From positions 1 through 30,014 of IMG/VR virus record IMGVR_UViG_3300020162_002633: a stretch of 30,014 bases of DNA; one strand, given 5' to 3'. The translations under genes and the position numbers were made by a program. Below are positions 4,484-30,014 of this stretch, in pieces. The stretch's first letter is position 1; every line of letters begins with the position of its first letter. This DNA is from a virus. The notes under the pieces are model-generated. The model did no database searches. It saw nothing but the letters and a program-made list of their open reading frames with translations, and was not told the DNA's origin.

Positions 4484-5202
4484 ATAGTGTAATTTTCTCC
4501 ATATTTTCTTAGGTCTAAATATACAGAATTATATTCAGATTTCCAAAAATAACTATTCATATTTTGATCTGCTTTTTGACAAAATTCACTTACTCCAATA
4601 TTAATTTTATTTTCTTTAAATGTTAAAGAGTTCATATGGGTAATTGTATTTGTATCAGATACAATAGTATTTAATTTATTTTTTTCCGAGATACACCCAG
4701 CGTAAAAATCTAATCCCCATCCATAGATCAATTCATCGGGGAAGTGTTGGATTTCCTCTAGAATATCTCGTCTGAGTAGGGGTGATTGGAAATCAATCCA
4801 TTTTACTTTACGTAAACCTTGTCCCCAATTCCACATTTGTTTCCAATGACATTGTTCCATTGAGGCATTTATAACTGTTGGAGAATAAACAGCTGCATCT
4901 GATTCTTTAGCTTCACGTAATGAGGTAGTTAAGAATGAAGGACCATGAAATACTAAATCATTATTTAAAAAATATAGATAATCATGATCTGTTGAGAGAA
5001 AATAATCTAATACAACATTGAAACCACCTCCAAAAAATATATTTTCTTCTAATTGGTGTGTTGTTGATTGAGCCAAAGATTCTTTTGAACCATTGTCAAC
5101 CACCATTAATTCACATTCATTAAATAATGGATCTTTTTTTAATTGATTAACTAAATTATCTGTCCATTGGGGGAGATTATGATTAAGTGTTGCTATTAAC
5201 AT
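4480..5202 (-). CDS. Family 2 glycosyltransferase
   Basis: This 240-aa protein starts MLIATLNHNLPQW and continues with LMVVDNGSKE, the nucleotide-binding part of GT-A enzymes. The DxD-equivalent is NND in YLYFLNNDLVF (about residue 80), as in rhamnosyltransferase-like GT2 proteins. GWGLDFY near residue 165 matches the acceptor-side ED/GxDxD region. It overlaps the upstream gene by 20 nt and the downstream methyltransferase by 4 nt. It is shorter than most GT2 enzymes and has no membrane segment, so it is probably cytosolic. Confidence 0.8.
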   Translation of the reverse strand: MLIATLNHNLPQWTDNLVNQLKKDPLFNECELMVVDNGSKESLAQSTTHQLEENIFFGGGFNVVLDYFLSTDHDYLYFLNNDLVFHGPSFLTTSLREAKESDAAVYSPTVINASMEQCHWKQMWNWGQGLRKVKWIDFQSPLLRRDILEEIQHFPDELIYGWGLDFYAGCISEKNKLNTIVSDTNTITHMNSLTFKENKINIGVSEFCQKADQNMNSYFWKSEYNSVYLDLRKYGENYTI

Positions 5203-6025
5203 AAGGAGGTTGTAATTGGTGGAAATAAAAATTTGTTTTAAACTGATTAAGTAAATGATTATATTTGGATTCTAATTTATTATGTGTTACCCAAATAGAT
5301 TGATTATCAGATAAGTTTTGGTTGTTGGCGCTAATGGAATTTTCTAAATATGGGAAATTGCCTGATCTTGATATTAAAAATGGGAATACTCCTTCAAAAT
5401 AATATCTATCTAATTTAGAAGTAAACCATTTATCAGTTATAAGCTTAAAAAATATATTTATGGGATCATGTGCTATAGCATATATAGTATGAATATAGAA
5501 GAAATTAGCATGAGTACAAGGGAGATCTTCAGAAATATCATTATCCCATAATTTAATTTCAACATCCTCTTCTCCATATTGTTTATTATGATCATATTCT
5601 AAACCTAACATACCATATGATCCTACTTTATTATCTATTATAAATGATTCTATAGTATCTTTTCGTAATAAAAAATTATTAATATACCACTCACGCAAAT
5701 AATCGCTATGGTTATTTACTCCACTCTTTGTGTGTACAAACCAATATACATCATATTGTTTTTTAGAATCATATAATAATTTTAAAGCAGCCTGGTAAGC
5801 AGAAGCATCACTTTCACTATATAATTCAGGTTGGGCTCTTAATATTTGAGTATTTAATCCATATTCTTCTATAATAGATTCTAAATTAGAAATACTATTT
5901 GGGTTGATTCCAATATATAAGTCAGAGGAGTTGAACTTAGTTTGGAACGTTTCCATAAATCTTCTAAGAACAAACTCACGATCAGGACTTAATATTGTTG
6001 CTGCAAATATAATACAACTGGGCAT
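5183..6025 (-). CDS. Putative glycan-synthesis protein, family uncertain
   Basis: This 280-aa protein is rich in aromatic residues. The segment YDVYWFVHTKSGVNN resembles the lHtK motif of RgpF/rhamnan-synthesis-F-like proteins, and FYIHTIYAIAHDP looks like a GT-A core strand. No clear DxD is visible. It sits between a methyltransferase and a GT2 gene in the same operon, so a glycosyltransferase or accessory role is likely. It overlaps the next start by 20 nt. Base composition is very AT-rich, with many AAT, TTA and ATA codons. Function is inferred mostly from context. Confidence 0.6.
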   Translation of the reverse strand: MPSCIIFAATILSPDREFVLRRFMETFQTKFNSSDLYIGINPNSISNLESIIEEYGLNTQILRAQPELYSESDASAYQAALKLLYDSKKQYDVYWFVHTKSGVNNHSDYLREWYINNFLLRKDTIESFIIDNKVGSYGMLGLEYDHNKQYGEEDVEIKLWDNDISEDLPCTHANFFYIHTIYAIAHDPINIFFKLITDKWFTSKLDRYYFEGVFPFLISRSGNFPYLENSISANNQNLSDNQSIWVTHNKLESKYNHLLNQFKTNFYFHQLQPPYVNSNT

Positions 6026-6029
6026 CTAA

Positions 6030-6644
6030 TTATTTTTTGATAATGAAGGCAATATCTGATACATTTGCTTTTTCAATATGAATTTCAGATACGTTTTCCA
6101 TCAAATATTTAATTTCACTTTCACTCATATTATTGCTAACTAACTCACCTGTATTTTTCCAGGTATGTAAAATCTCTAATGTATCAACATCACCTGGTCT
6201 TGTATATGCGGGGTTACCTGCTGTATGAAGATCTTCAATAACAAATGTACCGCCTGATTTTAAATATGGGAATAAAAACCCTAAAGTGATTTGTTGTTGA
6301 TGTTGCCAGTGACCTCCATCATCAATAATAATATCAAATTCATCAAATGTAGAGTTAATCAATTGTTGAAGTTGGTCTCGGTCGGATTGATCACATATTT
6401 TTATTTGTGTGTTTGGGAGCTGAACATGAGATAAATCTAAAATATCTGCACCTACTAAATTACCAATTGGGAAATATTCTCTCCACATTCTAATACTTTC
6501 ACCTTCCCATAATCCTATTTCTAAAAAATTATTTAGATTACTTCTATGTTTTGAAAAATATTTTTCATAGATATCTAAATACCCATGGTATATATTTCCT
6601 TTATCTGATTTGTAGTTTAAGCTAATTTCTTCTAGTGATTTCAT
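6030..6644 (-). CDS. Class I SAM methyltransferase (CmcI/MycE-like)
   Basis: The 204-aa protein carries an N-terminal SDKGNIYHGYLDIYEKYF signature, then motif I LEIGLWEGESIRMW, the motif-II acid in GADILDLS, and IIIDDGGHWQHQQ. The DDGGH stretch is typical of CmcI/macrocin-type O-methyltransferases, where the acids and His bind a metal next to the sugar hydroxyl. This fits methylation of a sugar in the glycan made by the operon. Gaps of 2-4 nt separate it from its neighbours. Family assignment is good; the substrate is unknown. Confidence 0.8.
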   Translation of the reverse strand: MKSLEEISLNYKSDKGNIYHGYLDIYEKYFSKHRSNLNNFLEIGLWEGESIRMWREYFPIGNLVGADILDLSHVQLPNTQIKICDQSDRDQLQQLINSTFDEFDIIIDDGGHWQHQQQITLGFLFPYLKSGGTFVIEDLHTAGNPAYTRPGDVDTLEILHTWKNTGELVSNNMSESEIKYLMENVSEIHIEKANVSDIAFIIKK

Positions 6645-6646
6645 AA

Positions 6647-7429
6647 TTAATTGAATTTATAAATTGATTGTAATCCAATACCTAAATAAAGTTTGGATAT
6701 TTTGTTTGGGGTATAATTAGTTTGTTTATCGTATTCGTATTGATGGGGGTAATGATAATTTTTAAATAATGGTCCTTTAGGCATTAATCGAATAGCTTGA
6801 CTATATAGTAACCATTCCCCATACCAAGTAAATTCAGAACCATTTACTTCAATTAAATCACTAAATTTTAATTTATTTGGGATTAAATAATTTTCTTCTA
6901 ATGATTTCCAAACTTTAGATGACCAAATTGTTGGTCCCGGACCAAAGTCATATATAGCCCCTTCTCTACCGAATAATTCCATTATATGTTTTCGTTCTTT
7001 GGTAAATGACTCATATGGATCAAAATTTAGTGGATATTTTTCCATAAACTCAAAAAACGACTTATATTCATGACATATTGTATAAGGGGTTTCATTATCA
7101 AACATAAAATCTGATATAGTAAAATCTTTAATGAAGATGCAATCTGAATCTATACAGACATAGTTTTCACATAATCCTAATTTCCAGAATTGGCTTTTTA
7201 CTATTTGTTGGCCTTTCCATCCTTCATTTAAACTATCAATATCTTCATCTTTTAAAAGAATATAATTACTTTCACCTAACTCTTTTTTGAATAATTCTAT
7301 ATCAGAAGATGGAACTGAAATGTAAAATGGGATATTGTCTATATTGTGTTTTGTAATGCTTTCTAATAAATCTTTAGCTCTATGTACGTCTAAATGATAA
7401 CTTTTACAATATAATACTATTTTATTCAT
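6647..7429 (-). CDS. DUF6492-like glycosyltransferase
   Basis: This 260-aa protein has FWKLGLCENYVCIDSDCIFIKDF near residues 82-104. This matches the 'L..D.D..f' donor-site motif of DUF6492-type GT-A proteins. GPGPTIWSSKVWKSL and WYGEWLLYSQ fit the acceptor part of the same fold. The N-terminus (MNKIVLYCKSY) is a typical GT-A first strand. It overlaps the PIG-L gene by 8 nt. The fold assignment is moderate; the transferred sugar is unknown. Confidence 0.7.
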   Translation of the reverse strand: MNKIVLYCKSYHLDVHRAKDLLESITKHNIDNIPFYISVPSSDIELFKKELGESNYILLKDEDIDSLNEGWKGQQIVKSQFWKLGLCENYVCIDSDCIFIKDFTISDFMFDNETPYTICHEYKSFFEFMEKYPLNFDPYESFTKERKHIMELFGREGAIYDFGPGPTIWSSKVWKSLEENYLIPNKLKFSDLIEVNGSEFTWYGEWLLYSQAIRLMPKGPLFKNYHYPHQYEYDKQTNYTPNKISKLYLGIGLQSIYKFN

Positions 7430-8054
7430 ATGCTGTAATTATTTTATATGATTCTACAAATCCTTGTCCTTTTTTCATACATTGAAAGTTAGTATGAAAT
7501 CCATCTAAAACAAATTCACCAAAATATTCATGATGTAATTGTGATTTAAATTCAAGTAACATTTTCTTCTTAATATAATAAAAATCTTTTAAAGAAACAA
7601 ATAAATTTGGAGTCCATTTATCTAAAGTTGATGGAGATTTGTATTGAATAATACTATATGGTTTAATTCTAGCTAATGGTGCTGCAAATGAAGATATTAA
7701 AACATGTTCAAAATGACTATCAGATTCTGAAGTGGTCATTATACAATCATAATCAAATTGTTTAGTGAAATTAGTTTCAATATAGTTTATCCATTCATCT
7801 ACTCCTAACTCTTTAAGAAATTTTACACCACTAAAATGTAAAGAATAATTGGATGCAGGAGTTGATTCCCAAGAATTTATTACTTCTTGAATTCTATCAG
7901 TTCCAGTTGTAGTATCACAATCCCCCCCTTGAGTTAAACATAAAATATCAAAATGAGTATCTTGATGTTTCAATACTACCCCAGCAATACTATATTCAGT
8001 ATCATCAGGGTGAGGACTTAAGCATAATACTCTATTAAAGTTTAAGAATTTCAT
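7422..8054 (-). CDS. PIG-L/LmbE family deacetylase
   Basis: The N-terminus carries the family hallmark PHPDDTE (residues 14-20), whose His and Asp bind the catalytic zinc. A second motif, SHFEHV (H114, H117), stands where the family has HxDHxxV. Members remove N-acetyl groups from GlcNAc-type sugars. Next to glycosyltransferases it probably deacetylates an amino sugar in the growing glycan or a precursor. Length (210 aa) is normal for the family. It overlaps the acyltransferase gene by 4 nt, a natural pairing for deacetylation followed by re-acylation. Confidence 0.85.
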   Translation of the reverse strand: MKFLNFNRVLCLSPHPDDTEYSIAGVVLKHQDTHFDILCLTQGGDCDTTTGTDRIQEVINSWESTPASNYSLHFSGVKFLKELGVDEWINYIETNFTKQFDYDCIMTTSESDSHFEHVLISSFAAPLARIKPYSIIQYKSPSTLDKWTPNLFVSLKDFYYIKKKMLLEFKSQLHHEYFGEFVLDGFHTNFQCMKKGQGFVESYKIITAYE

Positions 8055-8881
8055 TTGCGATTTAAATTAAATTTATATCCTTGTGGGGCATATACTCTAA
8101 TCCCATATCTTCTAGCAAAATCTCTAAATGCATCTGTGATTATATCATGTTCTCCTTTATATGAAAAATCAATCAAGTTAATTTCCAACTTATTAATATT
8201 AAGTGTTGGATAATTATGACTAATATGGAATTCAGGGATATCATAATAAGACATTAAATCTTTAAAATCTCTAACTAATCCATCTAACATCTCATTTTTT
8301 TCTTCTAAAGAAGGTTCTACTATACTTTTAATTAATTTAGCAGGAGATCCAGCATAAATACCTTTTGGTATAATTAATGATTTAGTTACTGTTGAATGTG
8401 ACCCAATTACAACATCATCACATATTTCAACTCCAGCCATAATAACTGTTTTCCATCCTACAATAACATTGTTTCCAATTTTAATTTCTTTAAATACTCT
8501 AGGATATCCTTCTAACACATTATACCAAAACCCATGAGTAATTAAATCAACATCATGAGATAACCCCACATCATTTCCTATCGTTACAGGAGCAGCTAAA
8601 TTAATATGTCCTGTATGACATACCATTCCTGATCCTATATTTAGGTTAGCATATGGAAAATTTGAGCTACCTCCACCAATAATCATACCTCTACTATCTG
8701 TAGGACCATTATAAAAATATTCTCCTAAGGTAACGTTTTCGGCATTAACAGTAAATCTATCACCTATAATACTATTATCACCAATTTCTAAACGACCACG
8801 AACTTTTATGTTAATATCTTTTCCAAACTTAACGTTATTTCCAATAATTAACTCACCCGCTTCAATATTTTTTATTTTCAT
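8051..8881 (-). CDS. Left-handed beta-helix acyltransferase
   Basis: The 276-aa protein shows repeated hexapeptides ([LIV]GxxxX), including ELIIGNNVKFG, LEIGDNSIIG, VTIGNDVGLS and IKIGNNVIVG. It ends the coil with the usual IPKGIYAGSPAKLIK. Histidines in LITHGFW and CHTGHINL are candidates for the catalytic base. Family members acetylate sugars with acetyl-CoA. An extra domain of about 80 residues follows the helix and has no recognised match. It is coupled by 4-nt overlaps to the SDR and PIG-L genes, suggesting tailoring of one amino sugar. Confidence 0.85.
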   Translation of the reverse strand: MKIKNIEAGELIIGNNVKFGKDINIKVRGRLEIGDNSIIGDRFTVNAENVTLGEYFYNGPTDSRGMIIGGGSSNFPYANLNIGSGMVCHTGHINLAAPVTIGNDVGLSHDVDLITHGFWYNVLEGYPRVFKEIKIGNNVIVGWKTVIMAGVEICDDVVIGSHSTVTKSLIIPKGIYAGSPAKLIKSIVEPSLEEKNEMLDGLVRDFKDLMSYYDIPEFHISHNYPTLNINKLEINLIDFSYKGEHDIITDAFRDFARRYGIRVYAPQGYKFNLNRK

Positions 8882-9525
8882 ATAATACCTCCACTTATAT
8901 TTAGATTTTGACCTGTAACATACCCTACTTCAATCAGATATTCAATAGTGTGATAGAGTTCTTCAATAGTCCCCCATCGTTTTGAGGGTATACTGTTTTT
9001 GATATTATCTCTAAACTCTTCAGGAATTTTATAAGTTAAACCACCATCAAAATACCCTAATTGAAGACTATTACAGTTAATGTTCTTTCCAGCGTTCTCA
9101 AGTGCAGTAGTTTTTGTTAAACTATCTACAAACCCTTTACAACCAGCATATATTCCTGTACTAATTACTGGGTGGTCTGCTAATACAGAGGATACTAGGA
9201 TAATTCTTCCATATTTTTGTTCTCTCATATATGGGAGACAAGAAGCTAAAATATTGATGGTTCCTTTTACATTGATATCAATCTGTTTATTAATTTCGTT
9301 ATAGTTATTTTGAGAATACTTATGTAAGAAAGAATCATAGTTGTAACCACTTAGATTAACAACGATATCAACTTTATTTGATTTAAAAAATTGATTTACT
9401 TGATTAAAATCTGTTACATCAACATCTTTTGATCTTAATTCTAATACGTTGTATTTTTCTTTAAGTTTAGGGAGAAGTTGACTTCCTAAGCCACCACCAG
9501 CTCCAAATAACACTACTGTTTTCAT
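8878..9525 (-). CDS. Short-chain dehydrogenase/reductase
   Basis: This NAD(P)-dependent SDR of 215 aa has a glycine-rich cofactor loop GAGGGLGS at residues 8-15, NLSG at 57-60 (the usual NNAG), and a serine in LVSSV (112-113). The catalytic pair is Y126-x3-K130 (YAGCK). The C-terminus VTGQNLNISGGI is the usual SDR ending. It resembles FabG-type classical SDRs but is slightly short. In the glycan operon it could oxidise or reduce a sugar nucleotide intermediate. Overlaps of 4 nt on both sides indicate coupled translation. Confidence 0.88.
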   Translation of the reverse strand: MKTVVLFGAGGGLGSQLLPKLKEKYNVLELRSKDVDVTDFNQVNQFFKSNKVDIVVNLSGYNYDSFLHKYSQNNYNEINKQIDINVKGTINILASCLPYMREQKYGRIILVSSVLADHPVISTGIYAGCKGFVDSLTKTTALENAGKNINCNSLQLGYFDGGLTYKIPEEFRDNIKNSIPSKRWGTIEELYHTIEYLIEVGYVTGQNLNISGGII

Positions 9526-10208
9526 TTTACTTCTACTTTACTTGACCAATTACTACTTTGTTTATTCATATGTTCTATATAATATTTTTCATCCTCAGGT
9601 AATGCCTCTGGATTGTAATAGAAAGGTGCATGTTTAACAACATATGGGTATCCAACTCTTAAAGTATCATTACTCCACGTTGGGATAGTTCCTGGGGAAT
9701 GAACTGAAAATGTAGTATCTAATGGATGGGGGTATAATTCAACATCTCCATCCACAATAGCATTAGTCCAATATGTTGATTCGTAACTATATACCCATTC
9801 ATTTAGTGGGTAACTACGATCAATATCATTAATTTCAATTGACATACCCACTTTAGATTTATTGTATTTCTTTGCATATCCAATTAAATGCTCTGCAAAA
9901 TCATCAGGAACCCCTTCAGATGGGATTATATCACTATCGTTAAATATGTACCAATTTGATACAATCTCTACAAACTTTGGGTGATTCATTAAAACTAAAT
10001 CACGAAAAGCATGACAAGAATTTTCTGTTAAATTATTATAAAATACATCAATATCAGATGTTTTGTACCATTCTAATAATGGTTCGTATGTTGATTGATT
10101 ATCTATAATTGTTATATTATTATATCCTCTTTGTTTTAATGCATTCACTTGATCCATTAATGGATATAATCTATCTCTATTTAAAATTACTATTGGTATA
10201 TTTTTCAT
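9522..10208 (-). CDS. GT-A fold glycosyltransferase-like protein
   Basis: This 228-aa protein starts MKNIPIVILNRDRLYPL, with ITIIDNQSTYEP after it and WYIFNDSDIIP near residue 92. These correspond to the first strand, the donor loop and the DxD motif (DSD) of GT-A enzymes. It is shorter than canonical GT2 proteins. ELYPHPLDTTFSVHSPG could form the acceptor site. Overlaps of 4 nt join it to the SDR and to another GT2 gene. Sugar specificity unknown. Confidence 0.75.
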   Translation of the reverse strand: MKNIPIVILNRDRLYPLMDQVNALKQRGYNNITIIDNQSTYEPLLEWYKTSDIDVFYNNLTENSCHAFRDLVLMNHPKFVEIVSNWYIFNDSDIIPSEGVPDDFAEHLIGYAKKYNKSKVGMSIEINDIDRSYPLNEWVYSYESTYWTNAIVDGDVELYPHPLDTTFSVHSPGTIPTWSNDTLRVGYPYVVKHAPFYYNPEALPEDEKYYIEHMNKQSSNWSSKVEVK

Positions 10209-11062
10209 TGGTACATTTTTATCATTCCATACTCATCAAATATAGGCATATCTCCCCATTTTTCCAACCATTTTTTAATATTTTCAGTTTCTGCTTTTCT
10301 TTGGCGTTCTGAGGATTTCCCATTATTTTCTTCTAATCTATGACTACCTCTAGCTCCAAAATGCCATACTAAAGAAGAGGTAGAAAGAATAAATCTTACT
10401 TTATGTTGGAGCATTCGTAAAAATAAATCCATATCATCCCAACTAGTTGGAGCAAAACGAGGATCATTACCTCCTACTTCATCCCAAACCGATTTTCTTA
10501 TTAAACCAGATACACCTTCACCTTTTGGGATTTCAATATCTTTATTCATTTTAATAAAATCTTCAGCCCAATTATCAAAATAATCAGAATCAAAATCATG
10601 AAAATACGCCCCAAACGCATCTAAGGGAACTATAATTGTTCCTAGTCTATGTGATGGGTTATTAAACATATTTGGTTCTACACGATGTGGGTTTATCCAT
10701 AACTTTTCTTCAGGATATTTTTTATATATGTCAAGTAGAGATTTATCCCAATTCTTAGTTACATAAAAATCTGAATGGAGGAACATTATATATTCTGTTT
10801 CAACGTGATCAGCACATATATTCATTCCACCACCAATACCTCTAACCTGGGTGTTTTCAGGTTCAATGAGTAGAGTTAGATTATATTTGTCTTTGTTTTC
10901 AGATAACCACTCATTAGTACCATCAGTACAATTTTCAGCATGTATTATAAATGGAGCATCTTTAAAATAACTGTTTTTTCTAACAGATTCAACTGCTAAT
11001 TTAAGATATGGAAGATTATTCCAAGTAGAAATGCAAAACGTTAGTGGACTAGAGTGTATCAT
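10205..11062 (-). CDS. Family 2 glycosyltransferase
   Basis: From the ATG at 11062 this is a 285-aa GT2 protein. It has LTFCISTWNNLPYL at the N-terminus, IIHAENCTDGTNEWL in the donor loop, the DxD-equivalent HSDFYV, and a GG.DPRFAPTSWDDMDLFLR acceptor motif. These strongly match the GT2 family. A longer frame exists from 11116 but would overlap the upstream gene by 68 nt. The chosen start gives a 14-nt overlap and begins right before the first conserved strand. Confidence 0.87.
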   Translation of the reverse strand: MIHSSPLTFCISTWNNLPYLKLAVESVRKNSYFKDAPFIIHAENCTDGTNEWLSENKDKYNLTLLIEPENTQVRGIGGGMNICADHVETEYIMFLHSDFYVTKNWDKSLLDIYKKYPEEKLWINPHRVEPNMFNNPSHRLGTIIVPLDAFGAYFHDFDSDYFDNWAEDFIKMNKDIEIPKGEGVSGLIRKSVWDEVGGNDPRFAPTSWDDMDLFLRMLQHKVRFILSTSSLVWHFGARGSHRLEENNGKSSERQRKAETENIKKWLEKWGDMPIFDEYGMIKMYQ

Positions 11063-11672
11063 AATAACTGTTTTGTTTTTCTTGTTTCTCAATTGATTTT
11101 GGGTGGTATAGAGCAAAATATTCTACATCAGGCATAGCTGTATAGTGTTTGAAACCATCTAAACGCTCATGTACTTTGTTTACCCATTTAATTTCCGGTT
11201 TATTTTTCCAAATACGCCATTGCATATCAGGCCAATTAACCCATCCTTCATCGTTTACTCTCCATCCCCATTTTGCAATATGTTCAGGAGTTAAACCCTC
11301 AACTGTGTTTACTCTAGGAACTAGATACACCTCAACTTCAGGATTTTCCTCTAAAATTTCAGGAAGCACTATTATTAAGTTTTCATTAGGGATTTCATCA
11401 GCATCGATTTGAAAGATGTAATCGCCATTACACAGACTGGATAGTTTATTTTTCCAGTCTGCGAAATGTTTCTCGAATTTTCCTTTATGCCACGCAAATT
11501 CTCCATTTGTTGAGTGCGAGCGTAGGAAGGCTTCGATTTCATGGTCACCATTTGCTTCATCATATAGGATCACAATATTGTCTTGTATACGTTTGTGTTG
11601 AAGCAAAAAGTGCACTAAACGTTGAATTTCTTTAAATTCATTACAGACTGTGATGGCATAACTTATTTTCAT
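11049..11672 (-). CDS. Family 2 glycosyltransferase (SunS-like)
   Basis: The 207-aa protein begins MKISYAITVCNEFKEI, a strong GT2 start. QIDADEIP (about residues 89-96) is the DxD metal site. The tail ...WVNKVHERLDGF plus YFALYHPKSIEKQE matches SunS/TIGR-type GT2 proteins, where a histidine near the end lies by the active site. Five bases separate it from the upstream 154-aa gene. It has no membrane segment. The donor is unknown. Confidence 0.85.
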   Translation of the reverse strand: MKISYAITVCNEFKEIQRLVHFLLQHKRIQDNIVILYDEANGDHEIEAFLRSHSTNGEFAWHKGKFEKHFADWKNKLSSLCNGDYIFQIDADEIPNENLIIVLPEILEENPEVEVYLVPRVNTVEGLTPEHIAKWGWRVNDEGWVNWPDMQWRIWKNKPEIKWVNKVHERLDGFKHYTAMPDVEYFALYHPKSIEKQEKQNSYYDTL

Positions 11673-11677
11673 ATATC

Positions 11678-12142
11678 TTATTCAGGTAATACTCCAATAT
11701 ATGAAAGAGCATCCATATAATCACGCTCTTCAAACGTTTTCATATTTTTCATATCCATTCTATATTTCATGAATTCACCTGGTTTACCTGGAATTGGGTG
11801 TTTTTTCTGGTCTTTTTTAGGGATTTCGATTGCTCTTACCGCAGCCCATCTCCAATTTGAAGCATCTGTACCATTTGCAAATACCATACCTTGTTCTTGG
11901 TTATTGATTGTATTTGGTAACCAAATCAATCCAGTTTCAGGATCTTTCCAAGCTAAATCTTTATACAACTCAGGTAATGTTTCCATTTGTTGCATATAAA
12001 ATTCATGATCTTCAGTCATGAATGAATTTGTCCAAAATCCACAAGATATACTCATGTAATTGTAAATTTCAGGGGCAACTTGTACTTTATAGCACAAGTC
12101 ACCTCCAGATTTAGGGCAATTTATAATTTCTTCGTGTTGCAT
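11678..12142 (-). CDS. Unknown 154-aa protein, possible zinc ribbon
   Basis: Cysteines C9, C17 and C34, in the context CPKSGGDLCYK...SISCGFW, look like a partly degenerate zinc ribbon. The rest has conserved-looking aromatic segments (LPELYKDLAWKDPETGLIWLPN, and WRWAAVRAIEIP) and ends MDALSYIGVLPE. I do not recognise a named family. It starts at the last base of the GT4 gene's stop and is followed by a GT2 gene. It belongs to the operon but may be a phage housekeeping protein, not a glycan enzyme. Confidence 0.6.
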   Translation of the reverse strand: MQHEEIINCPKSGGDLCYKVQVAPEIYNYMSISCGFWTNSFMTEDHEFYMQQMETLPELYKDLAWKDPETGLIWLPNTINNQEQGMVFANGTDASNWRWAAVRAIEIPKKDQKKHPIPGKPGEFMKYRMDMKNMKTFEERDYMDALSYIGVLPE

Positions 12143-13431
12143 TAATCTATTTTTTTAAGTTTAGGTAATTCAATTTTTTTCAACTTAGGTAACTGTAATT
12201 GTACCTGTTTTGGAAATTCAGGGATTCTGTTTGTAAATACCTCATCTAATTTATTTTTCATAGCATCGAATGAGAATTTTGTTCTACTTTGGAAACCTTG
12301 TCGTTTAGCATTCTCAGCATATCCTTTATAGTTCTCAAATACATCTTTCAAATGATAACCAGCTTGTCCATAATCAACATTAAACCATTCCGCTTCCGCT
12401 AACAACATATTATTTGCTGCGGACGGGTGTACTTTATTCATTGTACCTGGTAAAAGTGTAGTGAATTCTGGGTTTAGGTAATCTGTATGTCCACTCCAAT
12501 TTGTAGTAATGATTGGTTTATTTGTTAATGAGAACTCAAGTAATGGTCGACCAAATCCTTCTCCTTTGGTTAAATTAACCATTGCTTTAACTTTTGAATG
12601 ATTATAAATTTCATTCATCTCATTATCAGTAAATTCACCATGTAACAAATATATATTTGGTAGATTAGTTGATTTAACTGTATCTTTGATTGTTCTAATA
12701 CGTTTAATCAATTCATCTCTATCCATGTAAGAAGAACCTACGGTTGAAGTTTTTAAGATAAGTGCAGGTTTCTTTGATTTGTTTTTAAATGTTTCATAAA
12801 ACGCTTTTACTAACAAACCTACATTTTTTCTATCCTCACCTAAATGCCCTTGCATCCAATGACCTACAAACAAATAAGCAAAATCTTCTTTTATATTAGA
12901 TAAATCAAATGTTGACTTAATAGGTTTATATACCTCTGTGTTAGCACCTTCAAATATTACCTCACTATCACCTTTCCATTCAACATATCCTACTACTTGA
13001 TTGGATTGTTGATCACGTTTCTCAAATTTACTTTCTTTAAGTATTTTAATAGTATGTTCAGATGAACCTAAAATTAAATTCATTCGATTACAACCTTCAA
13101 TCCATTCCGCAGGTGCAATTGTTGTTTCAATTCCTGCGGTACATCCAATATTGAATTTTCCTACTGGTTGGAATTCATTTGGAACTGTAATTTGCATCCA
13201 AATTTCGGGTTGTGATGGTAATTGAGGGGAAACTAATAAATGATTCATTAAAAATTCCCATTCAGGATTATTTTCAATAAAACTCATTGGAGTACTTCCC
13301 CATCGTTGAGGTAAAACTTTTACATCATATTTATCTAATTCAATAATCGCTTTAACGATATCGCGAGAACGTGCTCCATAACCTGAATAGGTATCAATGG
13401 GGCAACTTATTACAAATACTGGTTTACTCAT
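12142..13431 (-). CDS. GT-B glycosyltransferase, GT4-like
   Basis: This 429-aa protein has the two-Rossmann GT-B layout. An N-terminal glycine-rich acceptor loop (DTYSGYGARSRD, residues 13-24) is followed later by donor-binding elements, including the E-x7-E motif at E291-E299 (KGEGFGRPLLEF). The C-terminus carries an unusual duplicated heptad LPKLKKIE/LPKLKKID, a basic tail of unknown role. It starts 3 nt after the upstream GT4 gene. It would transfer a hexose from a nucleotide sugar with retention, as known for GT4. The sugar is unknown. Confidence 0.85.
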   Translation of the reverse strand: MSKPVFVISCPIDTYSGYGARSRDIVKAIIELDKYDVKVLPQRWGSTPMSFIENNPEWEFLMNHLLVSPQLPSQPEIWMQITVPNEFQPVGKFNIGCTAGIETTIAPAEWIEGCNRMNLILGSSEHTIKILKESKFEKRDQQSNQVVGYVEWKGDSEVIFEGANTEVYKPIKSTFDLSNIKEDFAYLFVGHWMQGHLGEDRKNVGLLVKAFYETFKNKSKKPALILKTSTVGSSYMDRDELIKRIRTIKDTVKSTNLPNIYLLHGEFTDNEMNEIYNHSKVKAMVNLTKGEGFGRPLLEFSLTNKPIITTNWSGHTDYLNPEFTTLLPGTMNKVHPSAANNMLLAEAEWFNVDYGQAGYHLKDVFENYKGYAENAKRQGFQSRTKFSFDAMKNKLDEVFTNRIPEFPKQVQLQLPKLKKIELPKLKKID

Positions 13432-13434
13432 AAC

Positions 13435-14874
13435 TTAATATACAAATTTGTGATTAATTGTAGGTTCTTTAACGTCATTAACGTTGATTAATTCATATTT
13501 CTCTCGCGGAGCCCACGTGTTAAATAATTGATCTATCGCCATAATTGCTTTAGCTCCCATATCTTCACCCGTAAATCCTACATCATTGATAGCCCAATGT
13601 CTACCTGTTTTACCTAATTCTTTACGTTCTGTTCTATCTAAAGCATATACTTTACCAATTTGAACAGCTGCATCTTCTGCGTTACATCTATCATCCCAAA
13701 TATATGGTGTTTTAGGTGAACCTTGAATTGATCGGTTAGTTGGAAATACTGGGAATGCCCAACAACCATGATTTTTATATTTTCCTGTATGGTTTGAAGG
13801 GATTTCTGGTGTTGGTGTATACCAATTTCCAAATTCATCTTCAAATCCCATTTGATCTTGCATACCACCTGTTACGTTAGCAATAATAACAGTTCCAGCT
13901 AAAATGGCTTCTGTCAATGATAGACCCCAACCTTCGTTTGATGTCAATAAGATTTGAGCATCGGCAATGTTGTATAATTGATTTAATTGTTTAGTATCCA
14001 ATTTGTTTTGAGAGAAATAAATTGCTTCAGGGTAATCATTAAATAAAATTTTACGTACCGCATCTAAATCTGTTCCATGATCACTCACTATCTCGGTATG
14101 CATAAGCATAGCACATTTAGCTGCTTTTTCTTTTGGTAATGTATCCAAAAATAATTTGAAAGCAAGCATTGTGTCAGGAATTTGTTTACGTCTGATGTTT
14201 CTTGAATTAAAGAATACAACGAAGTCTTTTTCTTTACCTCCAAACATTTGAGATTTTACTTGTTCAAGTTCTTTTAACTCATCTTCTTTCTCAATTGGAT
14301 AATACATTTCATGATTTAAACCATGAGGAACATATTCAATTACTTTTTTACCTCGTTTCTCATCCAATACCAATTCGTTAATCAATTGGGTTTGTTTAGA
14401 GATAGCTAATAATGCATCACATGATTCATAAAATGCTTTATTGTATAATGGAGCAGGATAATCATCCCAAATATTCAAATAAATGATGGGCATTGTTTTT
14501 CTGATCTCGTTTTCAATCATGAATAACCACTCAAAATATCTTGGATCTGTAATCAACATGATTGCATCCGGCTTCTCGATTTTAATCAATTGTCTGATTA
14601 AATCAGCATCACCATATCCATCCACTGGGTATAAAAATACAGAAGTATCTGTTAAACCTGTATTATTGTTTGTATCTCCACTTAAATCAAAGCGTTTACC
14701 TTTTTCTGGGTGATTTATTGCTCCGGCAATGTTTACCCAATTGAAATGTTGGGCTGTATTTAAAACTAATTCACGTGCTACTGTAGCTACACCTGAGTGT
14801 ACTCTAATGTCATCACAAATCAGCATGATTTTTTTCCGCTCGTTTGGAGGGAGTTGTTTAAAACTTGAATTCAT
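13435..14874 (-). CDS. GT-B glycosyltransferase, GT4-like; first gene of glycan operon
   Basis: This 479-aa GT-B enzyme has an acceptor loop at DIRVHSGVATVARELV (22-37), an RNIRRKQI motif at the second-domain start (225-232), and the E-x7-E donor motif at E314-E322 (NEGWGLSLTE). These are hallmarks of retaining GT4 family enzymes. It is the first gene of a 15-gene run in which nearly all neighbours overlap or are within 5 nt. Its leader holds ATTTAATAAAAACAAAATAGTTATATG, AT-rich with no Shine-Dalgarno. Substrate unknown. Confidence 0.86.
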   Translation of the reverse strand: MNSSFKQLPPNERKKIMLICDDIRVHSGVATVARELVLNTAQHFNWVNIAGAINHPEKGKRFDLSGDTNNNTGLTDTSVFLYPVDGYGDADLIRQLIKIEKPDAIMLITDPRYFEWLFMIENEIRKTMPIIYLNIWDDYPAPLYNKAFYESCDALLAISKQTQLINELVLDEKRGKKVIEYVPHGLNHEMYYPIEKEDELKELEQVKSQMFGGKEKDFVVFFNSRNIRRKQIPDTMLAFKLFLDTLPKEKAAKCAMLMHTEIVSDHGTDLDAVRKILFNDYPEAIYFSQNKLDTKQLNQLYNIADAQILLTSNEGWGLSLTEAILAGTVIIANVTGGMQDQMGFEDEFGNWYTPTPEIPSNHTGKYKNHGCWAFPVFPTNRSIQGSPKTPYIWDDRCNAEDAAVQIGKVYALDRTERKELGKTGRHWAINDVGFTGEDMGAKAIMAIDQLFNTWAPREKYELINVNDVKEPTINHKFVY

Positions 14875-20904: not shown

Positions 20905-22836
<1,932 letters not shown>

Positions 22837-22840
<4 letters not shown>

Positions 22841-24203: not shown

Positions 24204-24938
24204 TTAGAACGCAGATTCCTCCTTTCTCACCATATAATATTCGCATGTAGTGTCCTCTGATTTGAATTCAAGTTTCATTAGGCCTTGGTAACTCAAAAAT
24301 ATAAAACCTTCATCTAAATCTTTATTTGCTTGAAGTATGTTTTTGAATATATCTGAATTGAATGGGATTTCATATTTTTCTTGCTTGATTTTACCATACA
24401 TTTGGTAGGTAATCTTGTTGTTGTGGCCTTGCTCATCTCCGAATGTGAATACACACATATTATCATCGTTCAAGTCTTTGTCAACAGAAACTGTTAACAA
24501 ACCAACTCCTGCTAAAGCAGATTTTGCTTTAACTAAATTGTCGACATGTTCTTTCTCAAGTGCAAGTACAGCATCCCATTCAGGTTCACTTACAGCACCT
24601 ACTTTACCAATCAATAAAGGATCAGCTAAAGCATATGTTAAGTTAAAAGATGCATCTGCAAATTTCATTTTGGTATAGACCGATCTGCCTTTCTCTAACT
24701 CAAACATTAAGTCACCCTGTGTAATACCTAACAGGTTTAATAGTTTTTTGGTATCGAAAATGGCTAATTCACTATCCTCAATATCAATATTGTTGTGAGT
24801 GATCTTACCTATTACCTCCTTTGAAATTGACATAAAGTCAATTGTAAGGGTTTTGTTGTTGATTTTCCACTTAACGGACTCGTTTTCGCCCAAGTAGTAT
24901 TTGTTTATAACTGATTGTAGAACTAATTTATTTACCAT
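24204..24938 (-). CDS. 45: Sliding clamp (T4 gp45-like)
   Basis: This 244-aa protein (T4 gp45, 228 aa) has ELAIFDTKKLLNLLGI, equivalent to the gp45 strand-helix DVAIYDLNGFLGIL. It also has SFNLTYALADPLLI, where relatives have ADPS-like sequences, and ends EYYMVRKEESAF, similar to the gp45 end. Clamps form a trimeric ring that tethers polymerase and, in T4, activates late transcription. It lies between polymerase and clamp-loader genes. Its ATG follows a terminator-like hairpin by only 14 nt, which matters for regulation. Confidence 0.8.
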   Translation of the reverse strand: MVNKLVLQSVINKYYLGENESVKWKINNKTLTIDFMSISKEVIGKITHNNIDIEDSELAIFDTKKLLNLLGITQGDLMFELEKGRSVYTKMKFADASFNLTYALADPLLIGKVGAVSEPEWDAVLALEKEHVDNLVKAKSALAGVGLLTVSVDKDLNDDNMCVFTFGDEQGHNNKITYQMYGKIKQEKYEIPFNSDIFKNILQANKDLDEGFIFLSYQGLMKLEFKSEDTTCEYYMVRKEESAF

Positions 24939-25256: not shown

Positions 25257-25898
25257 TTATTCTTTATATTTCCAAATATAATTAAATGCTTTTTTTTGTT
25301 TTTCTTGACAACATCTATTTATACTATTAGGGCTTAAATTTAATGTGAGAGATATTTCCTTTAGGGAATCCCATGTTTTAAGAAAATCACCATTTAAATC
25401 GTATTGAGATATTTTTCTCTTTTTATTGTTTGATGGTTTACCTAATTTAGATTCTCTCATTTTTTGTTTAGTAAGAACAGAGTGAGTGTGATTTTGAAAA
25501 TTACTAGGTTTACCTAATTTAGATTCTCTCATTTTTTGTTTAGTTTCTTCTGTTCTTTTTTGTCCTCTGATTTTATTTTTTACATGATCTGAAAGGGGAC
25601 CAAATGATCCTATATCATATAGGTTACAAAATAGAACTTTATTCCATTCTCCTTCCTGGGATTCTAGTATGGTTGTTTTCCAATAGCTTTCTCTTTCAAA
25701 TAATTCATCGATTAAACATTCTTCTATAATTTCAAATACATGATTTTCCCACCCATATTTTTGAATTGAATTATATATTTTAGGACCCATTATTCTTTTA
25801 TCTATACATTTATATGCAGATTTCCTTTTATTAATGTTAATAGATTGACCAATATATATTTTACCTTTAGGGTTAGTTATTTTGTATATTCCTATCAT
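25257..25898 (-). CDS. GIY-YIG homing endonuclease with NUMOD modules
   Basis: The 213-aa protein has GIY at residues 3-5 and YIG at 15-17, with the following R and a downstream E in FERESYW as catalytic residues. Two NUMOD3-type motifs (KQKMRESKLGKPSN) bind DNA. A NUMOD1-like C-terminus (ISQYDLNGDFLKTWDSLKEI...AFNYIWKY) reads sequence in the groove. It is the Seg/intron-endonuclease type of mobile gene and sits right after DNA polymerase. A copy of the promoter element lies 7 nt upstream. It starts at the ATG at 25898. Confidence 0.92.
   Translation of the reverse strand: MIGIYKITNPKGKIYIGQSININKRKSAYKCIDKRIMGPKIYNSIQKYGWENHVFEIIEECLIDELFERESYWKTTILESQEGEWNKVLFCNLYDIGSFGPLSDHVKNKIRGQKRTEETKQKMRESKLGKPSNFQNHTHSVLTKQKMRESKLGKPSNNKKRKISQYDLNGDFLKTWDSLKEISLTLNLSPNSINRCCQEKQKKAFNYIWKYKE
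25435..25544 (-). repeat. 38-bp perfect direct repeat, period 72 bp
   Basis: The sequences at 25435-25472 and 25507-25544 are identical over 38 bp. They encode the duplicated NUMOD3 motif of the GIY-YIG enzyme (24-codon period). Identity at the DNA level suggests recent duplication or ongoing recombination. Confidence 0.9.
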
Positions 25899-25958: not shown

Positions 25959-28688
25959 TTATGAGAAGTTAAAGAACTTTGCACGATATGGGTTGAGGGA
26001 AAGCTCCCATCCAATATCATTGTATACTGTTTCTAATTTGTTTCGCATTACACTATCAAACAAACCATCTCTGTCAATATACTTGTTGATCAATTCAGTA
26101 ATATCATCTGGGTCATTATATCCGTTGTATCCTATAGCATCAATTTGGTATGGATTTGGTTTTAAGTTAGCAATGTACATTTTGTCTCCAATTGTAAACT
26201 CAGGGTATTTTACATTAAGTTTCTTGTAACGCAAGAAATCATTATATCTAATAGCTGCTTTGGTATTTACCGGACATTTCAATTTCAATTTGGTAAATAA
26301 TTCACCAGCCATAGGTCTACGCTCAATATATTCACCCATTTTCTTCAATCCAGTTGGTTTCAATAGCTTAATCCACTCAATTTCACCTACCATTTGTTTG
26401 AATTCCATTACGTCTTTATCTATTTCGGTTTTTGGTTTACCAAATAGAATATTTTTGATTAGGTTTTCTCCAAAGTTTCTAAATAGAGGTGGGAAATTCG
26501 ATTTCATAATATCTAATCCCTTCATCTCTAGCTCCTCAATTTCAACACCCTCTTTGTTTACAATATACATTGCGTAACGGCGTTTCCCAGACCAATATGC
26601 TTTTTCAGCGATTACCTCTTGTTTGAGCACAAAGTGGTGTGCTTTGGTCATATTAAACAGATCCTGCGATATATTGTTCAGATTATCGTTTGCTACCTGT
26701 TGTAGCTCCTCAGTCAAAACAAGCAATCGTTGTATTTTCTCTTCACGATCATCGTACTTCAAATCTGGATTTCTGTGCTTTAACAAGTCAGTTAACTCCA
26801 TATAAAGTGAATCGGTATCAGAGGCGATCACAAATGTTCTAGGATCAATATCTAATTGCTCTGAAATATAATCGTTTACAAATGCAATAGATTCTTTGGT
26901 TAAACGTTGTCCACTATTTGTAATTGCAGCAGAACATATTTTAAATCCATCTGTGAAACGCCATGAATTAATTGCATATGTACCATATAATGCGTTTTGA
27001 AGGATCTTGAATGCCATTTGGTACAAGTCATATAATTTGTAGTTTACCCAATCCTCTGATTTACCTGCTGTTTTCTTAAGTGCTCTATAGTGCTCTCGTT
27101 TATCAAACCAATCCTCTAGTACCTCACAAGCAATACTCTTTTGATCCGTTCTATAAAATGCTCCACTGGCTGAAATGGTCCATTTATTGTCTTCAATCAA
27201 TTTGATTAAAGCACCTGCTCCTATTTTAGCATCTTTTAGAGCATAAGTAGATTTAACTAGCTTTTGTATGTGTAGTTTTTCCTCGGGATCAAGTTTCTTT
27301 AACTGCTCAAGTGAATTGTATTGCTCGTAATTGTTTTTTGTTACAATTCTACCTACTAATGTTTCAACACCCAAATTCAATGATTTGATAATTGAAGGAT
27401 ATAGTGAGGTAAAATCGAGATCGGATACATCTGAATATAATCCAGGTATAGGATCAAGTAAATAACCACCTGCATAACTATCCTTTTTACGAATCGTTTT
27501 AGGGTAACGGTTAATATACTTTCCGGACATTGTTTTTACTACAATGTTATCTTTCTCAAAGCTATATACAGTACCTTCAATTGTTGGAGTACCTCGTTGA
27601 TGTATAACGTGATCACCGAGTTCAAGCTCTCTAATGGATGGATTCGTTGTAGTTGGCTTGTTTGGTGCAATAATATTCTTACGTTTTAAATACGTTAAAA
27701 TCGCTCCCTCATTCAATGCTGTATTATAATAGATTGATTCATATGGTGTATGACATAAATGGGAAATCAAAATAGTCAATTCAATGAATTTTAATTTCTC
27801 CTCTAATACCTCAATGATTTCAACATCTCGAATGTTATAGTCAATAAACTTGATTGGATCCTCTCTAAATAAAGTATCTAGATTACCATTGTACTCAATC
27901 TTACCTAACTTAGCATATTTCAAACCAATATCACCTAACTTATATGATGGTTCTTCCTTAGCGATATATTTTTTCAACAACAACATATAGTCCAAACTGT
28001 TAACAAGTCCAATTCTGATTGGGTTGTTTGGTTGAGATAATGTTTCTGTGATTTTACCTACTGGGGATAAGCGATATACTTCATCTCCTAAACGTTTTTG
28101 TATTCTGTAGTACAAATATGGGATATCGAAGAAATCACTATTGTAACCTGCAACAATTGTAGGATCCATTTGTTCCCATTTGTTTAAGAACTTACGTAAT
28201 AGTGTATTTTCATCAGGGCAAGATACAATGACTTTACCATCTTGGTTCATATCCTCAATTGCACCTGCTTTATCTAAAATAAAACATATTTTTTCCTTAG
28301 TGGAAACATCAATCAAAGCAATAGCTGTAACCTCAGCATTTGCCTCTCTAATTGTTTGTGGTGTAAGTGCTCCTAGAATCTCAATCTCAATATCCAGATA
28401 AACTGTATTGTGATATGAAGGCATATCATCTGATTGATAATATAAATCTCTAAGGATTACCAATTCACGATCGATGTCTTTTTCATAAATTTTAGGATCC
28501 TTTCTATCATATTTTCCTTGAAAGGGAGAACATCTATCACCAAATAGTGTTTCAAATTCTCCCTCATCATCAAGTTTATATAAAGTAGGCCAATATTGGA
28601 ATTTATGAATTCCTTTCTTATCGTCTCGAAGATAGTAATGGTACTGATCTTCTCCTGGTAACCTGTTGTAAAAAACAGATTGGTACAT
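25959..28688 (-). CDS. 43: Family B DNA polymerase (T4 gp43-like)
   Basis: The 909-aa replicative polymerase has a 3'-5' exonuclease domain: Exo I YLDIEIE (97-103), Exo II YNSDFFD (182-188), Exo III YNIRDVE (284-290). Polymerase motifs follow: A DLDFTSLYPS (423-432), B KILQNALYGTYA (561-572), C SDTDSLY (623-629). Length and order match T4 gp43 (898 aa). Between residues about 351 and 405 lies an extra segment before motif A (LGDHVIHQRGTPTIEGTVYS...) that looks like a small SH3-like beta domain. It follows the MazG-like gene by 14 nt, with leader AAAAGTTATG. Confidence 0.97.
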   Translation of the reverse strand: MYQSVFYNRLPGEDQYHYYLRDDKKGIHKFQYWPTLYKLDDEGEFETLFGDRCSPFQGKYDRKDPKIYEKDIDRELVILRDLYYQSDDMPSYHNTVYLDIEIEILGALTPQTIREANAEVTAIALIDVSTKEKICFILDKAGAIEDMNQDGKVIVSCPDENTLLRKFLNKWEQMDPTIVAGYNSDFFDIPYLYYRIQKRLGDEVYRLSPVGKITETLSQPNNPIRIGLVNSLDYMLLLKKYIAKEEPSYKLGDIGLKYAKLGKIEYNGNLDTLFREDPIKFIDYNIRDVEIIEVLEEKLKFIELTILISHLCHTPYESIYYNTALNEGAILTYLKRKNIIAPNKPTTTNPSIRELELGDHVIHQRGTPTIEGTVYSFEKDNIVVKTMSGKYINRYPKTIRKKDSYAGGYLLDPIPGLYSDVSDLDFTSLYPSIIKSLNLGVETLVGRIVTKNNYEQYNSLEQLKKLDPEEKLHIQKLVKSTYALKDAKIGAGALIKLIEDNKWTISASGAFYRTDQKSIACEVLEDWFDKREHYRALKKTAGKSEDWVNYKLYDLYQMAFKILQNALYGTYAINSWRFTDGFKICSAAITNSGQRLTKESIAFVNDYISEQLDIDPRTFVIASDTDSLYMELTDLLKHRNPDLKYDDREEKIQRLLVLTEELQQVANDNLNNISQDLFNMTKAHHFVLKQEVIAEKAYWSGKRRYAMYIVNKEGVEIEELEMKGLDIMKSNFPPLFRNFGENLIKNILFGKPKTEIDKDVMEFKQMVGEIEWIKLLKPTGLKKMGEYIERRPMAGELFTKLKLKCPVNTKAAIRYNDFLRYKKLNVKYPEFTIGDKMYIANLKPNPYQIDAIGYNGYNDPDDITELINKYIDRDGLFDSVMRNKLETVYNDIGWELSLNPYRAKFFNFS

Positions 28689-29323: not shown

Positions 29324-29496
29324 TTGTTTTCTATTAAATGGAAATATAATCGTTCACTTGTTATGCTAATCCAAGTATTTACTCGTTGTTCACTAAAACT
29401 ATCTTTCTTTTTAGGATCAATCAAGACCATGAGATTACCTCTCATTTCTGCTTGGATTAGTTTAAGGATTTCCTCCTTAGATCTGGTGTCCTCCAT
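29320..29496 (-). CDS. Small protein, 58 aa
   Basis: An ATG at 29496 opens a 58-codon frame (MEDTRSKEEILKLIQAEMRG..., ending HLIENK). It overlaps folE by 20 nt and the MazG-like gene by 4 nt (ATGA). It begins with an acidic/basic helix and ends in a beta-like ITSERLYFHL. No family recognised. The tight overlaps on both sides and the absence of any other gene in the gap support it. Confidence 0.6.
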   Translation of the reverse strand: MEDTRSKEEILKLIQAEMRGNLMVLIDPKKKDSFSEQRVNTWISITSERLYFHLIENK

Positions 29497-30014
29497 TATT
29501 GATTTTTAATGAATCAAAGAACTCTTTACGTGCCTCGTTACCGTTATCTAAAAACACACCTGATGCTTTAGTTGTAACCATTGAAGCGCCTTGGTGTTTA
29601 ACACCTCTACAAGATACACAATTGTGAGTTGCTACTACTGTAACAATTACACCTCTGTTTTTCTCACAAATTTTATTTACTGCTTGATGAATAGCTGATG
29701 TTAATTGCTCTTGAATAGCACCTCTACGACCAAAATGTTCTACAATTCGGTTCAATTTTGATAATCCGATTACTCGACCTTGATCTCCAACTACATAACC
29801 AATATGAACTACTCCCCCAATAGTTTGGTGGTGATGTGAACACATTGAAGTTAATGGAATATTACGTTCAATAACAATACCATCGTATCCGTCTGAAGGG
29901 AATGAAGTAATATCGGACATTGCTGTATATCTACCAGCAAATAAATCGAATACATAAGCTTTAGCTACACGTCTAGGTGTATTATCGGAGTTTGGATCAT
30001 TTTCCCAATCAACA
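29477..30014 (-). CDS. folE: GTP cyclohydrolase I (5' end outside window)
   Basis: The enzyme converts GTP to dihydroneopterin triphosphate, for folate or 7-deazaguanine synthesis. The frame stays open to the window edge and already shows DNTPRRVAKAYVFDLFAGRY, then MCSHHH with zinc-binding C and H. GLSKLNRIVEHFGRR and IQEQLT follow, then HNCVSCRG (third zinc ligand) and a C-terminal ARKEFFDSL. These match the C-terminal two-thirds of FolE. A later ATG at 29920 is internal, because the conserved region starts before it. Phage FolE copies are often linked to modified guanines in phage DNA, but no other queuosine-pathway genes are visible here. Confidence 0.93.
   Translation of the reverse strand, partial: VDWENDPNSDNTPRRVAKAYVFDLFAGRYTAMSDITSFPSDGYDGIVIERNIPLTSMCSHHHQTIGGVVHIGYVVGDQGRVIGLSKLNRIVEHFGRRGAIQEQLTSAIHQAVNKICEKNRGVIVTVVATHNCVSCRGVKHQGASMVTTKASGVFLDNGNEARKEFFDSLKINNGGHQI

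Follow-up and report, generated by a model that had tools for sequence, protein, structure and literature searches.

A predicted SH3-like barrel inserted ahead of the YxGG motif in the T4-type DNA polymerases of one phage lineage

The window, by which we mean the whole 30,014-nucleotide stretch of virus record IMGVR_UViG_3300020162_002633 that was analysed, encodes a family B DNA polymerase of the T4 gp43 type. Our alignments show that in one phage lineage, known only from environmental DNA, this enzyme carries about 46 inserted residues where the N-terminal domain meets the palm, with the YxGG motif following at once. The insert is predicted to fold as an SH3-like barrel of the Tudor/KOW type without an assigned family, and the reading we favour, with a probability of roughly 0.45, is that the barrel adds a contact with DNA or template beside YxGG. 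The features of the gene on which this argument draws are as follows (aa, amino acids).

25959..28688, minus strand: family B DNA polymerase, T4 gp43 type, 909 aa (phrog_262, Pfam, AlphaFold2 (AF2) model against RB69 gp43)
27639..27662, minus strand: NKPTTTNP, residues 343-350, flank before the insertion, common with insert-less relatives (alignments)
27483..27629, minus strand: inserted SH3-like barrel (predicted), residues ~354-402 (alignments, AF2 of residues 343-404, Foldseek, VIA-align)
27582..27599, minus strand: QRGTPT loop (residues 364-369) linking strands 1 and 2, at the RT-loop position; the most conserved surface motif of the insert
27507..27509, minus strand: invariant R394, closing strand 4 ahead of the 3-10 turn (71/71 sequences; strands from the full-length model)
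27465..27476, minus strand: YAGG (YxGG motif), residues 405-408, directly after the insert (conservation, literature motif)
27387..27416, minus strand: motif A, DFTSLYPSII, residues 425-434 (sequence)
26808..26822, minus strand: motif C, SDTDS, residues 623-627; gene unbroken in the window, split just before motif C in several relatives
25965..25994, minus strand: C-terminal NPYRAKFFNF, likely clamp-binding tail (conservation and RB69 analogy)

The polymerase, the insertion point and the predicted fold

By a full-length profile match, the palm motifs A and C, an exonuclease domain and an RB69-like fold, the polymerase is a T4 gp43-type family B enzyme. The phrog_262 profile covers residues 12-897 with an expectation value (E) of 3.8e-139, Pfam returned DNA_pol_B and DNA_pol_B_exo1, and the 3'-5' exonuclease domain lies at residues 118-251 (PF03104, E 2e-14). 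Superposition of the full-length AF2 model on RB69 gp43 gave Z 31.0 and a root-mean-square deviation of 4.9 over 782 aligned residues (23% identity), which points to an RB69-like overall fold. In alignment A4, of 58 sequences, both glycines of YxGG are present in 58/58 and the tyrosine in 57/58; in the C-terminal tail F906 is found in 58/58 and K904 in 54/58. This tail is likely to bind the clamp, a role taken by analogy from the C-terminal tail of RB69 (PMC3012046; this and the other papers cited here are drawn on from excerpts). With the whole protein as query, tblastn matched at least 2,500 phage records; among the matches listed none exceeded 60% identity, and the closest isolate was Microcystis phage Mel-JY01 (32%). 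The scan of bacterial and archaeal genomes returned just two remote Micrarchaeota polymerases (21-23% identity), from which we draw no host.

The original prediction had marked 27460-27640 as an extra SH3-like segment before motif A; this interval corresponds to residues ~350-410 and holds LGDHVIHQRGTPTIEGTVYSF...IRKKDSYAGGY. That the segment is added with respect to the normal T4/RB69 fold was borne out by alignments with RB69 and with 15 named phage polymerases. Against RB69 gp43 the phmmer alignment ends at query residue 343 (RB69 382) and restarts at query residue 404 (RB69 390), everything between being unaligned, which sets the insert boundary at RB69 382-390. In RB69 the N-terminal domain comprises residues 1-102 and 340-380 and the polymerase domain starts at 381 (PMC3012046). 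The T4- and RB69-type enzymes share with the window enzyme the full-length match, motifs A and C, the exonuclease domain and the hydrophobic C-terminal tail, whereas at this site they have 9 aa in the alignment against 62 in the window. The same spacer (343-404) measured 9-12 aa in 14 of the 15 named polymerases aligned with MAFFT, from which a sixteenth record, L085, had been excluded because it is unannotated; the fifteenth, Mel-JY01, has 20 aa that hold no barrel sequence, so the segment is not common to all T4-like polymerases. Compared with environmental relatives that lack the insert (L159 and L117, for example), the window enzyme has ~46 extra aa, at approximately residues 354-402. The NKPTT.NP flank and the downstream YAGG occur in enzymes both with and without the insert, and the insertion point is therefore fixed between them.

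Structure prediction gave a separate barrel rather than a part of the normal fold. AF2 of residues 343-404, run with 47 sequences, reached a mean predicted local distance difference test (pLDDT) score of 84.8, with 42 of 62 residues at 90 or above, and placed strands at positions 18-21, 29-35, 40-44, 49-52 and 57-59 of the fragment and a short helix at 54-56; in the prediction the five strands follow the SH3 order, with a 3-10 turn ahead of the last one. The full-length model (58 sequences; mean pLDDT 86.5, predicted template modelling score 0.77) contains the same insert strands. The best Foldseek rows in the PDB include GatD, the Tudor domains of PHF1 and Pcl, PWWP domains, the KOW domain of Spt5, myosin heads, a designed SH3-type barrel and the UvrD C-terminal domain; the PHF1 Tudor domain (8h43_C), for example, aligned with TMq 0.69, TMt 0.77 and E 0.017. 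Together, structure prediction and the Foldseek and VIA-align matches support the SH3/Tudor-like barrel that had been proposed from the residue pattern, as a predicted fold.

Assignment to a family is another matter. Among viral models the best Foldseek match was an uncharacterised 63-aa phage protein (E 7.9e-4), followed by KOW, DUF2158 and DUF2187 proteins. Profiles matched weakly among 37 members of the insert family: DUF2187 in 12/37 (best E 4.5e-4), phrog_2251 in 22/37 (8.8e-5) and phrog_29923 in 14/37 (3.4e-4). The insert thus resembles the small Tudor, KOW, PWWP, DUF2187 and DUF2158 barrels in predicted fold, with weak profile matches to DUF2187 and phrog_2251, but the copy in the window matched no Pfam family even at E 10 and we place it in none of them. 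Its PHROG matches were weak only (E 0.027 or worse), the insert profile found nothing significant in the PDB (best E 0.18 and 0.36), and a tblastn search of 50,697 phage records with the insert returned a single match, at E 5, that looks unrelated. When 17 records were searched with the A5 profile for a free-standing barrel, it matched the polymerase alone in six barrel-type contigs, and in five others only 12-17 positions at the polymerase flank. The phrog_2251 profile matched a 71-aa open reading frame (ORF) adjoining nrdC in a T4-type phage, which is a possible remote relative.

Distribution, history and selection of the insert

A first scan of viral contigs yielded 71 loci. Of these, 68 reach across the site, and every one has an insert, which is of the window's type in 66 and diverged in two (L057 and L070); that scan used six peptides, one of them inside the insert, and its set is biased towards the insert. 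Further scans led by an alignment and by the insert-less L117 added relatives of ~46-60% identity, and another scan used the insert alone. In total 123 distinct full-length environmental polymerases were sorted by the stretch from residue 341 to residue 411 according to its length, with the sequences viewed for support: 72 have a long barrel-type insert (68-73 aa, QR present in 70/72), another 40 have just a short linker, and the other 11 have an insert of intermediate length (49-52 aa) that is helix-like, different in sequence from the barrel and at the same insertion point. Sampling was similarity-ranked and favours close relatives, through best matches, the insert peptide and the scan with the insert alone, so that 72:40:11 is not a population frequency.

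Same polymerase junction: helix-like insert loci L115, L148, L151, L153, L155, L156, L157, L184, L185, L192 and L193 (SHOCT-like in L192)

On a polymerase tree of 56 rows from which the insert columns had been removed, the barrel rows except L057 and L070 form one group with a Shimodaira-Hasegawa-like approximate likelihood ratio (SH-aLRT) support of 99. The barrel label changes twice in total, and the starred branches are compatible with one origin. L057 and L070 fall outside an insert-less group, and a single clade of all barrel rows is marginally rejected by the approximately unbiased test (p-AU 0.034, 31 rows). We take their insert as related to the barrel, because it scores 14.1 bits against the barrel profile while the best of 2,000 shuffles scores 7.7. 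These data are compatible with a single gain plus a loss, with two gains and with a swap. The alignment of environmental polymerases that had been suggested as a way to date the insertion places the main barrel group in one clade. The helix-like insert, present in eight of the 56 rows, requires five changes by parsimony, at least four of them forced by starred branches, which indicates that it has been gained or lost several times. The helical insert of L192 gave E 3.4e-5 and 23.9 bits against SHOCT (PF09851; cut-off 27); among the seven helical peptides tested one other reached E 0.26 and the remaining five had no match.

In 24 polymerases (276 pairs) the median ratio of nonsynonymous to synonymous substitution rates (dN/dS) was 0.18 for the insert and 0.07 for each flank; the insert is under purifying selection. 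Mean entropy was 1.15 bits in the insert, 0.78 in the whole enzyme and 0.40 around motif A. Within the 71 barrel sequences compared, a set that excludes L057 and L070, residues D359, Q364, R365, T367, G372 and R394 are invariant (71/71), T369 is kept in 70/71 and G366 in 67/71. These patterns show a module that is maintained, with a conserved polar loop, yet constrained more loosely than the catalytic core.

Possible roles of the barrel

We favour a contact with DNA or template because the barrel is tied to YxGG, the template runs by the N-terminal domain, and the SH3-like Sso7d boosts processivity. The YxGG motif lies between the exonuclease and polymerase parts (PMC10604792) and is reportedly important for processivity and fidelity; in Pfu polymerase, one additional leucine just before YxGG displaces the motif from the DNA backbone (PMC4034419). 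Single-stranded template is located at the N-terminal domain (PMC5718519), and fusion of Sso7d to polymerases raises their processivity (PMC5112516). Purifying selection, the conserved polar residues and the median net charge of +3 also count in favour of this reading. In it, the barrel would be a built-in accessory domain touching DNA, with the QRGTPT loop, R394 and a basic tail (R/K-K-K) adjoining YAGG as putative contacts; what they touch would probably be single-stranded template, or else the duplex on its template side. Such a contact would strengthen the hold on the template and increase processivity, or tilt the balance of synthesis against proofreading, on which the YxGG region has an influence, and the barrel might then act as a natural, internal counterpart of the engineered Sso7d-polymerase fusions.

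Several known systems invite comparison. The Sso7d and Sac7d fusions (PMC5112516, PMC10604792) also join a small SH3-like barrel to a family B polymerase; they were engineered from an archaeal chromatin protein, whereas the insert is natural, internal, located at the junction of the N-terminal domain and the palm, and a putative DNA binder. Vaccinia E9 resembles the window enzyme as a viral family B polymerase with lineage-specific extra modules: its insert 2 is a small six-stranded beta-barrel in the exonuclease domain and its insert 3, in the palm, binds the processivity subunit A20, but neither sits at the junction occupied here (PMC5682278). The P-domain of pol epsilon (PMC7544198) and TPR1 and TPR2 of phi29 (PMC4974454) are further extra domains of family B polymerases linked to processivity, and differ from the window insert in fold and position in the chain. 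An SH3 fold is associated with a phage family B polymerase in PhiKZ-type phages too; in a jumbo-phage review, that small SH3 protein is encoded by a separate gene and proposed only as a subunit, and the divergent polymerase lacks a fused exonuclease, unlike the window enzyme (PMC7824862). Extra modules in family B polymerases are thus already known. Searches of the open-licence literature aimed at such an insert yielded no description of an SH3-like insert at this junction; in the main text of a PolB survey the word SH3 is absent (PMC7544198).

Such an insert matters since replicative polymerases rarely gain a whole folded module beside a motif that governs the grip on DNA and the switch between copying and proofreading. 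Insertions in gp43 have reportedly been treated by Petrov, Ratnayaka and Karam in 2010, a work that we know by citation and that did not enter our comparison.

The original prediction offered two other partners for the barrel, the phage clamp and modified template bases. PF02916, the Pfam family of the T4 clamp, found no clamp in the clade (one of 16 records matched, the T4-type control), and a diverged clamp family was therefore built.

24204..24938, minus strand: diverged sliding clamp, 244 aa (family profile match to phrog_223; PDB clamp matches)

Single-sequence searches with this protein found no match. The family to which it belongs occurs in 15 of the 16 records searched. Of 28 family members, 10 matched phrog_223 (DNA polymerase processivity factor; best E 2.3e-9), and the only PDB profile matches of the family were sliding clamps (E 0.0066 and 1.0); on these grounds we take the gene as the clamp. 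The barrel label changes nine times on the clamp tree (57 rows), at least five of the changes being forced by starred branches, against two on the polymerase tree, a comparison in which the row sets differ and the long branches of the clamp tree make its deep joins unsure. In a pair with opposite barrel states, L096 (barrel) and L187 (no barrel), the clamps are 89% identical and the polymerases 58.5%. The C-terminal KFFxF tail is retained in every insert state (F906 58/58). The trees and this pair indicate that clamp genes are exchanged between lineages with and without the barrel; the clamp seems to pass from one phage lineage to another without the polymerase, and the barrel is not co-inherited with a cognate clamp. 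Clamp movement, the L096/L187 case and the shared tail together make an obligate pairing of barrel and clamp unlikely. That added domains touching processivity factors exist in family B polymerases (PMC5682278) speaks for a barrel contact specific to the phage's own clamp; given the exchange, we regard such a contact as highly improbable, and clamp movement across barrel states already narrows the roles that the barrel may have.

The proposal of modified template bases found no support either. Among 14 long contigs FolE is found in 12 and QueC likewise in 12; for either gene the count is 5/6 with the barrel, 7/7 with a short linker and 0/1 with the helical insert, that single helical contig being a 102-kb fragment. 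TGT/DpdA-type genes were found in 0/14 related contigs, whereas all 14 control genomes were positive. Thymidylate synthase occurs in 5/14 contigs with no pattern relative to the barrel. FolE and QueC in the absence of TGT suggest a preQ0-type pathway and, judged by gene content, this modified-base pathway does not follow the barrel. A GTP cyclohydrolase I gene lies upstream of the polymerase (29477-30013, minus strand).

After DNA or template contact, we rank docking of another protein and then a tolerated spacer. Docking, which we hold to be rather doubtful, would make the barrel a module for a non-clamp partner in the replisome or host (single-stranded-DNA-binding protein, helicase/primase, clamp loader or RNA polymerase); its binding face would be the QRGTPT loop. 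The invariant polar loop and R394 suit such a role, since they lie on either side of the groove in which SH3 domains usually bind their ligands. Partners are bound in this way by the Tudor-like domains found in UvrD-type proteins, and the Foldseek matches include the C-terminal domain of UvrD bound to UvrB (rank 46, E 0.039). Docking also has parallels in an insert, elsewhere in the E9 chain, that binds a processivity subunit (PMC5682278) and in the small SH3-fold gene, possibly a subunit, beside PhiKZ-type polymerases (PMC7824862). Nevertheless, among the genes examined (clamp, FolE, QueC, TGT, thymidylate synthase and Cpn10) none tracks the insert, and the insert is polymorphic among relatives of related gene content.

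A spacer tolerated at an exposed, length-permissive junction, where domains come and go with little effect beyond folding, seems less probable again. It would account for the occupation of one point by a short linker, a helical insert that changes repeatedly, or a barrel, and for the place of the insert among the faster-evolving parts of the enzyme; it sits poorly with a dN/dS of 0.18, with QR-T and R394 invariant in 71/71, and with retention of the barrel, QR included, in 70 distinct environmental sequences. Least probable of all, and in our opinion very remote, is that the insert is what remains of an intein or of some other mobile element. The polymerase gene often has homing endonuclease genes around it, with a GIY-YIG gene directly downstream and split genes in relatives, but the splits sit just before motif C, away from the insert, no Pfam family including Hint matched the window insert at E 10, and the predicted fold is a compact barrel whose sequence is under purifying selection.

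Several observations weigh against a DNA-binding barrel as well. In the full-length model pLDDT falls below 50 at the loop 365-369 and at the YAGG linker 404-407, and for this reason any placement of the predicted barrel relative to DNA would be tentative. No Foldseek match in the PDB reached E 0.001, and the highest VIA-align Z, 7.8, lies under the tool's caution line of 8. The net charge of the insert is small (0 to +4, median +3), and it evolves faster than the rest of the enzyme in both dN/dS and entropy. The diverged insert of L057 and L070 lacks QR, and with it the QRGTPT loop. Furthermore, related phages with a short linker or a helical insert evidently manage without the barrel.

If the barrel does add processivity, it would offer a natural precedent for the engineered SH3-type fusions and a new site for them. 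A bolder reading, improbable in our estimate, would see the junction as an evolutionary socket for accessory domains in phage replicases, filled here by an SH3 barrel that binds DNA and turns the enzyme into a natural Sso7d-like processivity and template-guiding polymerase (or serves as a proofreading switch), and left empty or fitted with a helical module in sister phages. Matched natural enzymes with the barrel, with the helical insert and with neither make the effect of the module open to comparison.

Split polymerase genes and neighbouring genes

In nine relatives (L044, L045, L048, L054, L055, L058, L060, L119 and L122) the polymerase gene is split just before motif C: the first part ends at a stop and the second restarts ahead of (S/A)DTDS. 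Between the parts there is a long ORF in 8/9, by eye often homing-endonuclease-like, and in L054 only ~50 nt. Rfam gave no match to group I introns at the motif C splits in 10 loci. Split gp43 is known in Aeromonas phages (PMC2988022). In the window, a GIY-YIG homing endonuclease gene with NUMOD1/NUMOD3 motifs (25257-25898, minus strand) lies between the intact polymerase and the clamp.

The window also encodes a phage GroEL (20905-22542, minus strand; phrog_5725, E 2e-147) with an adjoining GroES (22535-22840, minus strand; Cpn10, E 4e-21), and a Cpn10 gene is present in all 14 related contigs searched. Additionally, a block of GtrB-like, methyltransferase, FabG/epimerase-like and glycosyltransferase genes occupies 2634-14874 on the minus strand.

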